Assembly: GCA_025363275.1 (NCBI GenBank)
Contig: JANYEE010000085.1
Coordinates: 1 to 35,413 of the forward strand
Direction of reading: 5' to 3'
DNA from: Burkholderiales bacterium
Lineage (GTDB): Bacteria > Pseudomonadota > Gammaproteobacteria > Burkholderiales > Burkholderiaceae_C
Length of the DNA: 35,413 bases
Made by a program: the position numbers and the translations under genes. The notes under the pieces are model-generated. The model saw only the letters and a list, made by a program, of their open reading frames with translations, did not search any database and was not told where the DNA came from. Below, in pieces: positions 2,597-29,960 of this stretch. The first letter of the stretch is position 1. The number at the start of each line of letters is the position of its first letter.

Positions 2597-3013
2597 ATGC
2601 GTCACTTACCGATCTGGCTATCAGCGTTGTGGTGGGGGAGCCTCACCACGCTGGGCTTCTTGGTGGTGCCCATGCTGTTTGCGAACCTAGCCACTCCTGC
2701 AATGGCGGGCAATATGGCGGCCAAACTCTTCTCAGCCCAAACCTATATCTCTAGCGTATGTGGGCTGCTGATATTGCTCATTTTCGGATCAAAACGCCCG
2801 TTGGTCCGCAAGAAAACTGCCCAGGGTGCTACACTTTTTGTAGTGGGCGGTATGCTCTTGGCATTGCTAGTCGAGTTTGGCGTGGCCCCCCGCATCGTGG
2901 CCCGCGAAAACCTGGCCCTGTGGCATGGCTTGGGTAGCGCCATGTACGTAGTTCAGTGGTTATGTGCTGCGGCGGTGTTTTGGAAACTGATCCAGGCGAC
3001 TCAGACGGATTGA
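2597..3013 (+). CDS. DUF4149 family membrane protein
   Basis: A 138-residue, very hydrophobic protein with about four membrane segments: near residues 5-28 (ALWWGSLTTLGFLVVPMLF), 46-63, 75-95 (LFVVGGMLLALLVEFGV) and 108-130. The W-G-S-L-T-T-LGFLVVP start followed by LFANLATPAMAG is what I know from the DUF4149 family, which commonly sits beside greA in Comamonadaceae. The function is unknown. It starts 24 bases after greA on the same strand, so the two are probably cotranscribed. No catalytic motif is visible. A dispersed repeat lies immediately after its stop codon. Confidence 0.8.
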   Translation: MRHLPIWLSALWWGSLTTLGFLVVPMLFANLATPAMAGNMAAKLFSAQTYISSVCGLLILLIFGSKRPLVRKKTAQGATLFVVGGMLLALLVEFGVAPRIVARENLALWHGLGSAMYVVQWLCAAAVFWKLIQATQTD

Positions 3014-3024
3014 AGTTGCTACGT

Positions 3025-3074
3025 TTGCTATTGAATTGATAGCTGCTCCCGCATATTCCACTTGGGCTACAGGC
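3025..3074 (+). repeat. Dispersed GCTAT-N7-ATAGC repeat, intergenic copy 1
   Basis: Begins 11 bases after the DUF4149 stop. The element has a 5' inverted core (GCTAT, 7 bases, ATAGC at 3027-3043), then GCTCCCGCATATTCCAC and a 3' block GGGCTACAGGC ending at 3074. It matches the copy inside earP at 39 of 50 positions and shares the same 5' and 3' blocks with the copy at 23398-23451. No ORF or target-site duplication is evident. Confidence 0.8.
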
Positions 3075-3253
3075 ACTATTAGCTGGTGGATTCAAGTGCG
3101 CGGTGCAATGCAAGCTTGTAGACGCTTGGTGCCAGGACCTGAGTGGCTGTCTGTGCGTTTTACCTCAGTGTGCAATCGAGCAGAGCACGACACTCCAGTA
3201 CTTAGGGTACGCGGATGGGCTTGACGATAGCTGTGCGAAAATTACCGCAAAAC

Positions 3254-10117: not shown

Positions 10118-10300
10118 TCAGAGTCCCAGCTCTTCGTCGGTGAGTACCCGAGCTTCGGTTTCCAGCAGCACGGGGATGCCATCGCGCACCGGGTAGGCCA
10201 AACGGGCGCTGTGGGAGAAGAGTTCTTGCTGTTCGCGGCGGTATTCCAGCGGGCCCTTCGTAACGGGGCAGACCAGCAGTTCAAGTAGTCGTGTGTCCAT
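10118..10300 (-). CDS. Trm112 family protein (YcaR-like)
   Basis: A 60-residue member of the Trm112/UPF0434 family ([20 protein letters not shown]; then [18 protein letters not shown]). Eukaryotic and archaeal Trm112 activates methyltransferases; the bacterial protein has no well-settled role but is very commonly encoded between lpxK and kdsB, as here. Only one cysteine of the usual zinc-knuckle pair is present (CPVTKG rather than CPVCKG), as in many proteobacterial members. The ATG overlaps the end of lpxK by 20 bases, so it probably depends on lpxK translation. Upstream in-frame codons inside lpxK give no family-like sequence. Confidence 0.9.
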
Positions 10301-11342
10301 GGAGCGATGATAGCTTTGCCGCGCCGGCGGCCTGCAGCAATGGGTCGAACCGGTGCCAGAAGGCCGGCTCCAATTCAAAGTCCAGCGGCACAGCAATCGC
10401 GTCTGGAGCAGTGCGCCAGAGCTTTACAGCGTCTTTTTCGGTACAAATCAGGCTGTGGCCCGCGTATTTATTACCTGTCCAGCTATCAAAATCATAGTGA
10501 TCGGGTAAGGCCAGGGTCTCTTGTAGGTCCAGCCCTTGGGCGCGCAGCATCGTAAAAAACTCTTCCGGCTGGCTGGTTCCCGCCAAAGCAATCCGTGCTG
10601 GGCTGCCGGGCGCGGCCAGATCGTTCAGAGAAACCCGTGTGCCGTCTTTGCGAATTCCATAGTCCGCCAGGCGACGTTGGCCCCTCAGGCCGGAGAAAGC
10701 TGGAGATTGGCCGGTGTGCAGCGCCAGTGTGCAGGAGGGTGATTGTCCGGCGGATTTCACCAGCGCCCGCGGCCAGTGTTCGCGCAGGGGGCCAGATGGC
10801 AGCAGCCAACCATTGCCGCAGCCCCGGTCGTCAAACACACAGATTTCCACATCACGGAACAAGCCGTAGTGCTGCAAACCATCGTCGCATACCAGCACCT
10901 GGGTTTGGGGGTAACGCCGCAGCAGCGCGCTGGCCGCTTCAAACCGGCTGGGGCCGACGAAGACCGGCGCGCCGGTTTTTTGGTGAATCAGCATGGGCTC
11001 ATCGCCAGCCTCGTGGGGCGGTGTGGCCGCAGTCACCTCTAGGCAGCCAGTAGAGCTGCGCCCGTAGCCACGCGACACCACACCCACGAGCCAACCCGCG
11101 GCTGTCAAATGCGCAACCAGGGCAATGGTGACGGGCGTTTTACCTGAGCCGCCGGCCACCACATTGCCCACCACGACCACGGGAATACTGACATGGTGGG
11201 ACTTTTGCCATTGCCAACGATATAGCTGGCGGCGTAACGCCGCCAAGCCGCCGTAGAGCGCGGCCACAGGTAGCAAAAGGCGGGATAGAAGTCCGCGGTG
11301 GTTCCAGCTCTGGCCCAAACGCTGTTGCATTGCGGCCGGCAT
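10281..11342 (-). CDS. lpxK: Tetraacyldisaccharide 4'-kinase
   Basis: Phosphorylates the 4' position of the lipid A disaccharide precursor to give lipid IVA at the inner membrane. The 353-residue protein has an N-terminal hydrophobic segment ([19 protein letters not shown]) that anchors it, a Walker A motif at about residues 59-69 ([11 protein letters not shown]), [27 protein letters not shown] and the C-terminal [12 protein letters not shown]. Unusually, residues about 282-300, just before LICTEKDA, are encoded by a copy of the dispersed repeat of this genome (10444-10497). The start is uncertain: ATG 11342 overlaps the exbD region by a few bases after its stop, while ATG 11327 (MQQRLGQSW) looks more like the family; neither has a strong ribosome site. 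The 3' end overlaps the Trm112 gene. Confidence 0.94.
10444..10497 (-). repeat. Dispersed repeat copy translated inside lpxK
   Basis: Read on the minus strand, this stretch matches the intergenic copy at 23398-23451 at 42 of 54 positions without gaps, including the CTAT...GATAGCT core, TAATAAATAC and GGGC.ACAG blocks. It is in frame and encodes [17 protein letters not shown]. The first base of the core (C of CTAT) is the third base of a codon. Confidence 0.75.
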
Positions 11343-11346
11343 GGGC

Positions 11347-11772
11347 TTAACGGCCGGATTGCGCCGAGGACTGGGTGGCAAAGGTAATTTGGTTCAGACC
11401 GGCGCGACGCGCTGCCTCCATTACCGTCACCACGGACTGGTGCTTGGCGCTGGCATCTGCGCTGATGATGACCACGGTCTCTTTACCGGCTTTGGCACCG
11501 TCGCCCAGCGCAGCGGCCAGGGTCTCTAGGCTGCGGCCGGTGACAGCCACGCGGTTGACGCTGTAAGCCCCCTCAGCACTGACTGACACAATCATTTCCT
11601 TCGGGTAGTCCCGCTGGGCATCGGTGTCTGCTACCGGCAGGCGCAGTTGCATTTCGGTGAACTTGCTGTACGTGGTGGACAGCATCAAGAAGATCAGCAC
11701 CACCAAGAGCACGTCAATGAACGGAATCAGGTTAATTTCAGGTTCGCTGACCGGGCGCGCGCGGAAGTTCAT
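11347..11772 (-). CDS. exbD: ExbD/TolR family biopolymer transport protein
   Basis: Partner of ExbB in the proton-driven motor that energises TonB-dependent outer-membrane transport (or Tol-Pal in related systems). The 141-residue protein has one membrane helix near residues 15-33 with the conserved proton-carrying aspartate, Asp20, in INLIPFIDVLLVVLIFLML, followed by a periplasmic domain (RLPVADTDAQ, VVIISADASAKHQSVVTVMEAA). It lies 16 bases after exbB and immediately upstream of lpxK, an arrangement I know from other betaproteobacteria. No tonB gene is in the window, so the TonB versus Tol assignment rests on neighbours and wording and is not certain. Confidence 0.9.
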   Translation of the reverse strand: MNFRARPVSEPEINLIPFIDVLLVVLIFLMLSTTYSKFTEMQLRLPVADTDAQRDYPKEMIVSVSAEGAYSVNRVAVTGRSLETLAAALGDGAKAGKETVVIISADASAKHQSVVTVMEAARRAGLNQITFATQSSAQSGR

Positions 11773-23386: not shown

Positions 23387-23397
23387 CTTGCTAGCCG

Positions 23398-23451
23398 CTA
23401 TGAATTTAATAGCTATCCAGTTAATAAATACCTGGGCTACAGGCCGTTTTG
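23398..23451 (+). repeat. Dispersed GCTAT-N7-ATAGC repeat, intergenic copy 2
   Basis: Lies 12 bases after the nitroreductase stop. It has the GCTAT-GAATTTA-ATAGC core (23397-23413), then TAATAAATA and CCTGGGCTACAGGC. It is aligned without gaps to the copy inside lpxK at 42 of 54 positions. The 3' block CCTG-GGCTA-CAGG can form a second small hairpin. Confidence 0.8.
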
Positions 23452-23484
23452 GCATGTAATTGACTCAAAAAACGCGTACCAAGC

Positions 23485-28787: not shown

Positions 28788-29960
28788 TTATCGTTTTTTC
28801 AGCACGAACCCGATAAGTTGCGTCGTGAGATCGTCCGTCTGCAGGAGTTGGGCCTGCAAGCCTTGCACTGCGCTGTACCAGGCGCCCAGCTCAGTGGGTA
28901 GCCATTCAGCCAGATCTGCCTCTGACGTTTGACTCTCTATCCCGTTCCACAGCCGGTGAAATTGCACCAGGCTGGGTGGCGCCTTCAGCACGTCCAAAAA
29001 CGCCATCAGCTTGGCATGGTGGGCATCGTCATTCTGCGGGTAGATGTGCCATACCAAGGGCTTGCCCGCCCAGATGGCACGCACCAGCGAATCTTCGCCG
29101 CGTACAAAATTCAGATCGCAGCAACGCAGCAATTCGTCAAACTCGGTCTGGCTCAGCGGGGACAAATAGGTGACCTGCAGTGGGCAGTGTGCGGCGAGTG
29201 GGCCAATTGTTGCCAGCGCGGATTGCACCGCCTGTGTTGCGCGCCCTGCCGAAACGAGGAGCCGCGTGCTGAACGGCTGCACTGCCCAGTGGCGCAGCAG
29301 TGCAGCAAGCAGTGCGGGTTCGTAACAAAACAGCGAGACCAAGTATTCATCGCGCCACGCGATGCCATGCTCCGCCAACCAGCATCGTTTTGCGTCTGTG
29401 TCACCCCAATGCTGTTGGCTACCCAACAACCCAGGCTCACGCAGCAGCCCGCCTGTGCCTTGCGTGAAGCCAGGGTAGAAAAAATACTTGGTGTGACCCG
29501 TCGCTGGCCCCTGCATCACCGGCGAGGGCAAGGCGTGTGCACGCTCCACGTAAGCCTCTGCCGACAGGTACTCCAGATTGATCCAAACCGGGAAATTTGA
29601 GCCATTTAGGTCTGAGGCCCTTGTGGAATATGCCTGAGTAGCTATGAATTCAGGAGCAATTTCGCAGCCAAATCCTTCTACCCAGACATCTGCGGGCTCC
29701 AACTTCGCCAGGCTCGGCGCGTGGTGGGTCTGCTCCCACCGCAAGACTCGCACGCCTGGCCAGTCACCTTGCAAAGCGCCCGGTGCCATCCACTGCAAAG
29801 CTGAAGCATCGTCCACCCACAGGCGTACGCGGTGGCCGCGGCAGGCCAAGTCGGCGCTCAAGCGCCAGCACACACCCAGATCGCCAAAGTTGTCGATCAC
29901 GCGACAAAAAATATCCCAAAGCAGAGGCGTGGGGCAAGGTGTGGGCTGGGCCGTGGTCAT
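28788..29960 (-). CDS. earP: EF-P arginine rhamnosyltransferase EarP
   Basis: Transfers rhamnose from dTDP-rhamnose to Arg32 of EF-P, an inverting glycosyltransferase with GT-B fold. The 390-residue protein has the N-terminal motif [21 protein letters not shown], which includes the catalytic Asp residues (Asp23 and Asp27), [17 protein letters not shown] in the middle and [25 protein letters not shown] at the C-terminal nucleotide-sugar site. Residues about 101-117 ([16 protein letters not shown]) are encoded by a copy of the dispersed repeat and fall between a conserved EGFGCE and the WINLEYL motif, a segment that varies among relatives. efp follows on the same strand. The gene is divergent from uvrC across 66 bases. 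Confidence 0.94.
29610..29659 (-). repeat. Dispersed repeat copy translated inside earP
   Basis: Read on the minus strand, it matches intergenic copy 1 (3025-3074) at 39 of 50 positions without gaps, including TGAATT.ATAGCT, GCATATTCCAC and GGGC..CAG blocks. It is in frame; the C of the core is the second base of a codon, a different frame from the lpxK copy. Confidence 0.75.

Follow-up and report, generated by a model that had tools for sequence, protein, structure and literature searches.

A copy of a dispersed 66-bp repeat lies in frame within earP in a Comamonadaceae genome

The window and its repeat copies

The window considered here is the whole 35,413-nucleotide stretch of contig JANYEE010000085.1 from a Burkholderiales bacterium. 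It contains earP and, inside it, one copy of a short dispersed repeat; a weaker copy lies in lpxK, and two others are intergenic. The relevant features are as follows.

28788..29960, minus strand: earP, EF-P arginine rhamnosyltransferase, 390 aa, host gene (Pfam PF10093, E 1.4e-118; matched by solved EarP chains)
29594..29659, minus strand: the 66-bp dispersed repeat in full length, read in the earP frame as residues 101-122 (22 residues)
29641..29657, minus strand: dyad core of the earP copy, repeat positions 3-19, GCTCC-N7-ATAGC
10281..11381, minus strand: lpxK, host of the weaker copy (name from the earlier note; open reading frame list and homologues in relatives)
10443-10498, minus strand: weaker copy inside lpxK, in another frame than in earP (33.6 bits, E 8.5e-10; 19.0 bits with repeat model R1)
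3025..3084, plus strand: intergenic copy 1 (60.5 bits; 48.1 bits with an independent profile)
23397..23459, plus strand: intergenic copy 2 (29.3 bits; 41.8 bits with an independent profile)

The earP segment is a copy of a dispersed repeat. An earlier note on this DNA had matched the minus strand of 29610-29659 to the intergenic copy at 3025 at 39 of 50 positions, and its coordinates, strand and identity are exact on recount. The copy itself is real, but 50 bp is too short for it, since it spans about 66 bp: positions 1-64 of model R1 correspond to 29659..29596, and the 3′ limit of the alignment is 29596 or, with a second profile, 29595, the full 66 positions leading to 29594. The note also had the frames right. 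In earP the repeat begins on the second base of an Ile codon, and in lpxK, by coordinates, its position 1 falls on a third codon base.

Could EarP residues simply happen to yield repeat-like DNA, by chance or protein constraint? The left-arm peptide does resemble EarP helix sequence in genes lacking the repeat, and its motif IAPEFIA is present in five EarP genes without the DNA signature, so that part of the left arm may be host-derived. However, a profile built from 148 copies, with both strong window copies excluded, gives the earP copy 50.6 bits (E 4.3e-15), whereas the best of 500 synonymous recodings of the gene reaches 17.1 bits. Thus, the encoded residues are not enough to produce the match, which exists at the level of DNA and, moreover, extends over the full repeat. 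An origin by chance or constraint is very improbable. All 17 carriers with IAPEFIA use ATA for its sixth residue, whereas ATA makes up 32 of 393 Ile codons elsewhere in the genes of the carriers, a comparison that is partly circular because carriers were picked by DNA similarity.

The genome from which the window comes (3.7 Mb in 269 contigs) yielded at least 150 matches, these being the best 150 of 1901 first-look candidates, with the last one listed at 36 bits. The window copies at 10443 and 23397 are not among them. At least two pairs of copies near the ends of contigs, identical or almost so (C211:7109 with C259:3, and C193:16453 with C238:22778), are probably assembly overlaps, and the list therefore includes a few duplicates. 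The repeat ends sharply at positions 2 and 66, and its mean GC content is 0.45, compared with 0.54 in the 30 bp on either side. The nearest to the earP copy among the other 149 listed copies, C125:16156, is identical to it at 47 of 50 positions. A further weak match (15.1 bits, E 5e-4) was noticed on the minus strand of the window at 2782-2843, within the open frame 2597-3013.

Other genomes of the genus gave 148 matches at E ≤ 1e-4 among 150 scored, 53 at E ≤ 1e-7 and 18 at E ≤ 1e-10. In the middle of the repeat, the consensus of these genomes departs from the one in the window genome, while the two close relatives G001 and G007 are alike. In the bin PBBC2 (G041), 14 of 25 matches at E ≤ 0.01 fall on a single 211-kb contig, C8, which may be misbinned from a Rhodoferax-like organism.

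A structured RNA was also considered for the repeat and dropped, as pairing came without compensatory change. RNAalifold on 20 copies returned five pairs, none with a compensatory change, and across the 150 listed copies stem pairing was like that of shuffles (for stem 1, 0.867 versus a shuffle mean of 0.860), again with no compensatory change. At gathering scores, Rfam found two tRNAs only in the whole window.

Copies captured within genes

Capture by genes is recurrent, as the earlier note had proposed from two cases. Gene calls from a self-trained model put 31 of the 150 listed copies entirely within predicted genes, with 26 across a gene end and 93 intergenic; the predicted coding share of 0.4 Mb around copies is 87%. 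Earlier classifications by codon score had given 17 and then 29 captures, and both missed earP. The 31 captures fall in 30 predicted genes, 29 of which match Pfam at 1e-5. Hosts include parts of PurL, two of which are possibly one gene split by a contig end, and genes read as ThiL, MetG, DnaX, a CCA-adding enzyme, CobU, an AmiC-like amidase and an acyl-CoA synthetase. One predicted gene, L049:402-1844 on C105, has no Pfam match at 1e-5 and holds two in-frame copies in opposite orientations. In the CCA-adding enzyme (L099:1223-2509, on C60), repeat-like DNA encodes RRD-LTINSIA where chain 1vfg has the motif RRDFTINAMA, and the acyl-CoA synthetase has LAPDF where chain 5u2a has LAPGF.

Frame use among the captures is filtered relative to chance, the comparison that the earlier note had called for. 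Sense phase 0 accounts for 14 captures and antisense phase 1 for 13, with two each in sense phase 1 and antisense phase 2. The two main frames are also those most often free of stops in the intergenic copies (42 and 34 of 93), and the 27 of 31 captures that use these two of the six frames exceed the stop-free expectation from the 93 intergenic copies at p 0.0019, the frames having been chosen after the counts were seen.

The further suggestion that selection keeps only copies landing in tolerant loops is half borne out. Relative to the best Pfam stretch for each family, 14 captures lie inside, 15 outside, meaning linkers, ends or an edge overlap of a few residues, and two are in the gene without a Pfam match. 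In an AlphaFold model of EarP (mean pLDDT 90.8), residues 103-114 form a helix, a strand follows at 125-129, and the block 111-120 has a mean pLDDT of 67. Part of the segment is therefore a low-confidence loop, in keeping with the surface loop foreseen in the note, but its first half is helix. The catalytic candidates D13, D17 and E273, described for Pseudomonas putida EarP in the consulted part of PMC5615199, are by position far from the repeat-coded segment. Judging from the open frame, the segment is presumably translated.

Captured genes are not simply longer by one repeat. Against one homologue each, the net gains of nine captured genes are 0 (lpxK), 3, 4, 8 (earP), 11, 12, 12, 15 and 15 codons, as counted from alignments in which the case of 3 has another gap of 4 nearby. 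All nine gains are below the 22 codons of the repeat. In most cases, then, capture resembles a replacement with some extension, or an insertion that was trimmed afterwards, more than a clean insertion. The 67 loci of metG, thiL and lpxK relatives yielded 17 copies at E ≤ 0.05, part of them at the captured site and the others at different places.

In EarP, the stretch from EGFGCE to WINLEYL has 32 residues in the window protein and 24 in six genes of other families. This excess of 8 residues is smaller than the 22 codons of the repeat, which would thus have partly replaced host codons. Carriers have 28, 32 or 34 residues in this stretch and same-family genes without the signature have 19 to 37; because these ranges overlap, loop length alone is no marker of the repeat.

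The DNA signature (at least 10 bits) is present in 39 of 105 EarP genes. By record title, the carriers belong to Rhodoferax, Acidovorax, Polaromonas, Extensimonas, Simplicispira, Ramlibacter and others, several of them metagenome bins. Among EarP genes of other families, it was absent from all six outgroup genes and from five more (0/11). The earlier note had staked its reading on the segment being confined to the family in EarP and on the genome holding further matches: the outcome is mixed, as the segment spans several genera of the family yet none of the 11 genes outside it, and genome-wide matches are abundant. In eight same-genus carriers the repeat begins at the same codon, and it has probably sat in earP for a long time. 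On a quick EarP tree the signature at this site requires 18 changes, which fits one old origin with many signature losses, but also several gains. A second, antisense capture lies near EarP residues 245-262 in 33 of the 105 genes (for example, KNRLQPSWNKRQQLSISYLP in L215; carriers also include L205, L208, L241, L247, L248 and L264), and 26 genes carry both. At earP codons ∼245-262 of the window genome, the antisense copy is absent.

Fixed positions and a possibly exchangeable middle

Frequent insertion, which the earlier note had named next to conversion, finds no support in the comparison of G001 and G007, close relatives with flanks about 89% identical, for which 17 pairs of orthologous stretches at 12 anchors were available. 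Of 51 copies in G007, 39 were placed in G001 (one counted twice), 10 were unplaced and 2 were at an edge. None of the 39 placed copies faced an empty site: 31 partners are exactly 66 bp and 8 have another length. The reverse test placed 37 of 45 copies, again with no empty site, the shortest partner being 41 bp. Frequent insertion is thus not supported on that time scale.

The corresponding explanation, a MITE- or REP-like element that inserts often and of which the earP copy is one recent landing, has some points in its favor beyond the high copy number of at least 150. The repeat type differs between species (G001 and G007 being indistinguishable in this respect), and the close match of the earP copy to C125:16156 would fit recent spread. 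For target-site duplications in the flanks, a trait of MITEs, no length k from 3 to 9 among 149 copies exceeded the largest of 100 shuffles; at k = 5 there are 3 cases against 2.3, and at k = 6, 7 and 8 there are 2, 2 and 1 against shuffle means of 0.4, 0.2 and 0.0, so that one or two copies with 6- to 8-bp duplications stand slightly above the null mean without any broad excess. In REP/RAYT systems, a Y1 transposase gene is flanked by repeat copies. The window genome has two Y1-type transposase genes; one (L101:364-1242, on C6) starts about 80 bp from a copy, but with a copy on one side only, and its own ends bear, by eye, an inverted repeat unlike the 66-bp repeat. The second has no repeat copy within 1.5 kb on either side. 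With the signature in 39 EarP genes across several genera as well, recent or frequent mobility is unlikely.

Conversion, the other process that the earlier note had suggested, is plausible, although earP itself gives no clear direction. Between the lpxK genes of the window genome and contig C8, the outer parts of the repeat are nearly identical, whereas the middle agrees at 4 of 15 positions with no change in length (P 3e-7 given 86% overall identity, for a block picked by eye). This middle matches another copy of its own genome at 17 of 21 positions and copies of four other sets at no more than 13, the own-genome set being much larger, which favors it as the source of the best match; the 21 of 21 obtained with the C8 set is trivial, since that set holds the copy itself. 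The same swap is visible by eye at two intergenic orthologous sites, window 23397 and C176:45020. Together with an lpxK segment equal in length to that of a homologue from another family, and with net gains that stay below 22 codons in all nine captured genes, these observations suit ectopic gene conversion, by which the earP and lpxK copies would be repeatedly overwritten, at least in the middle, from repeats of their own genome.

Other observations pull away from repeated overwriting. In a tenth captured gene, GluQ-like, the unaligned stretch containing the repeat has 69 residues against 33, a gain of 36, and the best match is the orthologue in 29 of 31 cases between G007 and G001. In earP, 8 of 31 middle positions differ by eye from the nearest relative; the window copy has its genome's consensus letter at 21, 25 and 26, the relative's copy at 38, 39 and 49, hence no net drift toward the own type. 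Own-genome conversion of the earP copy was rejected as a specific candidate, as profile scores do not single out the own genome across relatives. The middle of the window copy scores 37.8 with the profile of its own genome and at most 25.5 with others, but earP of G007 and of contig C8 score higher with the profile of a different genome, and for earP of G022 and G001 such a profile does about equally well. Best-match identity does not discriminate among so many copies, a foreign earP also reaching 29 of 31. We regard repeated overwriting of the two genic copies as possible but doubtful.

An apparently conserved dyad core, and comparison with known repeats

The dyad core, with family consensus GCTAY-N7-RTAGC, behaves differently from the rest of the repeat. 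In 29 pairs from G007 and G001 (31 minus one duplicate match and one pair below 50% identity), nine core positions differ in 5 of 261 comparisons, against 264 of 1653 (16%) at other repeat positions and 11.3% in the flanks. Ten of these pairs are anchors, chosen since they were listed in both genomes. In the 19 pairs not pre-selected in this way, the core differs in 4 of 171, other repeat positions in 216 of 1083 and the flanks at 13.0%; core letters were lost in the partner in 4 of 149 cases, against 9.7 expected (one-sided p 0.036), and three of these four changes come from one doubtful pair of 58% identity. In a stricter set (at least 65% identity), there are 2 of 225, against 12.4. All of these counts rest on one genome pair and on copies found by a profile that rewards the core.

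The low rate of core change suggests that GCTA-N8-ATAGC is a DNA-level site under selection that genes must accommodate. With no compensatory change in the stems, a putative DNA-binding site is likelier than an RNA hairpin; we know of no protein that binds this core. More broadly, and tentatively, at least 150 such dyad sites (GCTAY-N7-RTAGCTG with a nearby GCGCA-type box) may be kept by purifying selection at fixed chromosomal places in Comamonadaceae, some of them within enzymes, the loops and even the motifs of which would have been shaped to read through the sites. In some hosts, the CCA-adding enzyme and the acyl-CoA synthetase among them, the site appears to have been laid over codons that already resembled the left arm.

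The account we favor, and consider somewhat probable, is that the earP segment is an old, fixed copy of a Comamonadaceae repeat. It would have entered earP in frame in an ancestor, replacing host codons as well as adding some, and been passed down since. Repeat identity, the shared position in eight same-genus genes, segment lengths and the predicted structure are what the comparisons yield directly, and we infer a single origin. The repeat would now code for a helix end and a surface loop in the N-terminal half of EarP, as the predicted structure indicates. For a copy in a gene to survive, it would need both a frame without stops and a place that tolerates it. The repeat does not appear to be jumping now, and its middle part, judging from three loci, would be exchangeable between copies. 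Its core would be conserved at the DNA level at each site, most simply through the binding of a protein, so that in earP the same bases may serve both as codons and as a DNA site.

Rickettsia is the best-known source of in-frame coding repeats, which have there been called selfish DNA in protein genes; enterobacteria and Neisseria are reported to have such repeats as well. In the present case the hosts belong to a betaproteobacterial family, and the captured genes include enzymes of translation and the cell wall. Since the positions of the repeats are fixed between two relatives while the core resists change, one can test whether repeats of this kind are insertions that are now dead or DNA sites that are maintained. 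Equally testable is how a protein evolves around a DNA site that it must encode.

It is useful to contrast this repeat with known elements, most of them compared through the portions of the cited papers that were consulted. Close in kind is the Rickettsia palindromic element, RPE (Ogata et al. 2000), a short dispersed repeat of 105-150 bp with terminal inverted repeats (PMC10969869, PMC2229807). Like RPE, the present repeat is short and dispersed and lies both between and inside conserved protein genes, in frame and in unrelated enzymes; the RPE trait of in-frame presence in conserved genes is found here in the 31 captures among 150 listed copies, with Pfam matches for 29 of the 30 host genes. 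Unlike RPE as described there, it is 66 bp long, belongs to Comamonadaceae, uses both strands and four frames, and is without terminal inverted repeats, a trait shared by RPE and MITEs, the consensus ends being by eye not complementary; in the single genome pair compared, its dyad core is strictly conserved.

The beta-proteobacterial repeat element BRE (Hot et al. 2011) is reported from Comamonadaceae genera and from Bordetella, with some copies entirely within coding sequences; Bordetella copies are 75-91 bp with an average GC content of 69%, according to the sections consulted of PMC3110155. The present repeat resembles BRE in its occurrence in Comamonadaceae and in having some copies inside coding sequences. 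At 66 bp and 45% GC, it is set apart from BRE (about 90 bp, GC near 69%) by its length and base composition. Intragenic elements also include the 168-bp YPAL of Yersinia and ERIC (PMC2229807, PMC10969869, in part), and protein-coding palindromes of Wolbachia appear as a title cited in PMC2229807. These too are small repeats fused in frame to genes; by description, they differ in host group, and YPAL is larger. In REP/RAYT systems, a short palindrome carries on one side a GTAG or CGTC tag (PMC3733652), which is not present at the ends of this repeat, TTGC...AAAA. Among the open-licence papers listed in searches on Comamonadaceae repeats, in-frame palindromes, BRE and the repeat's own words, RPE and BRE are described and this repeat is not.
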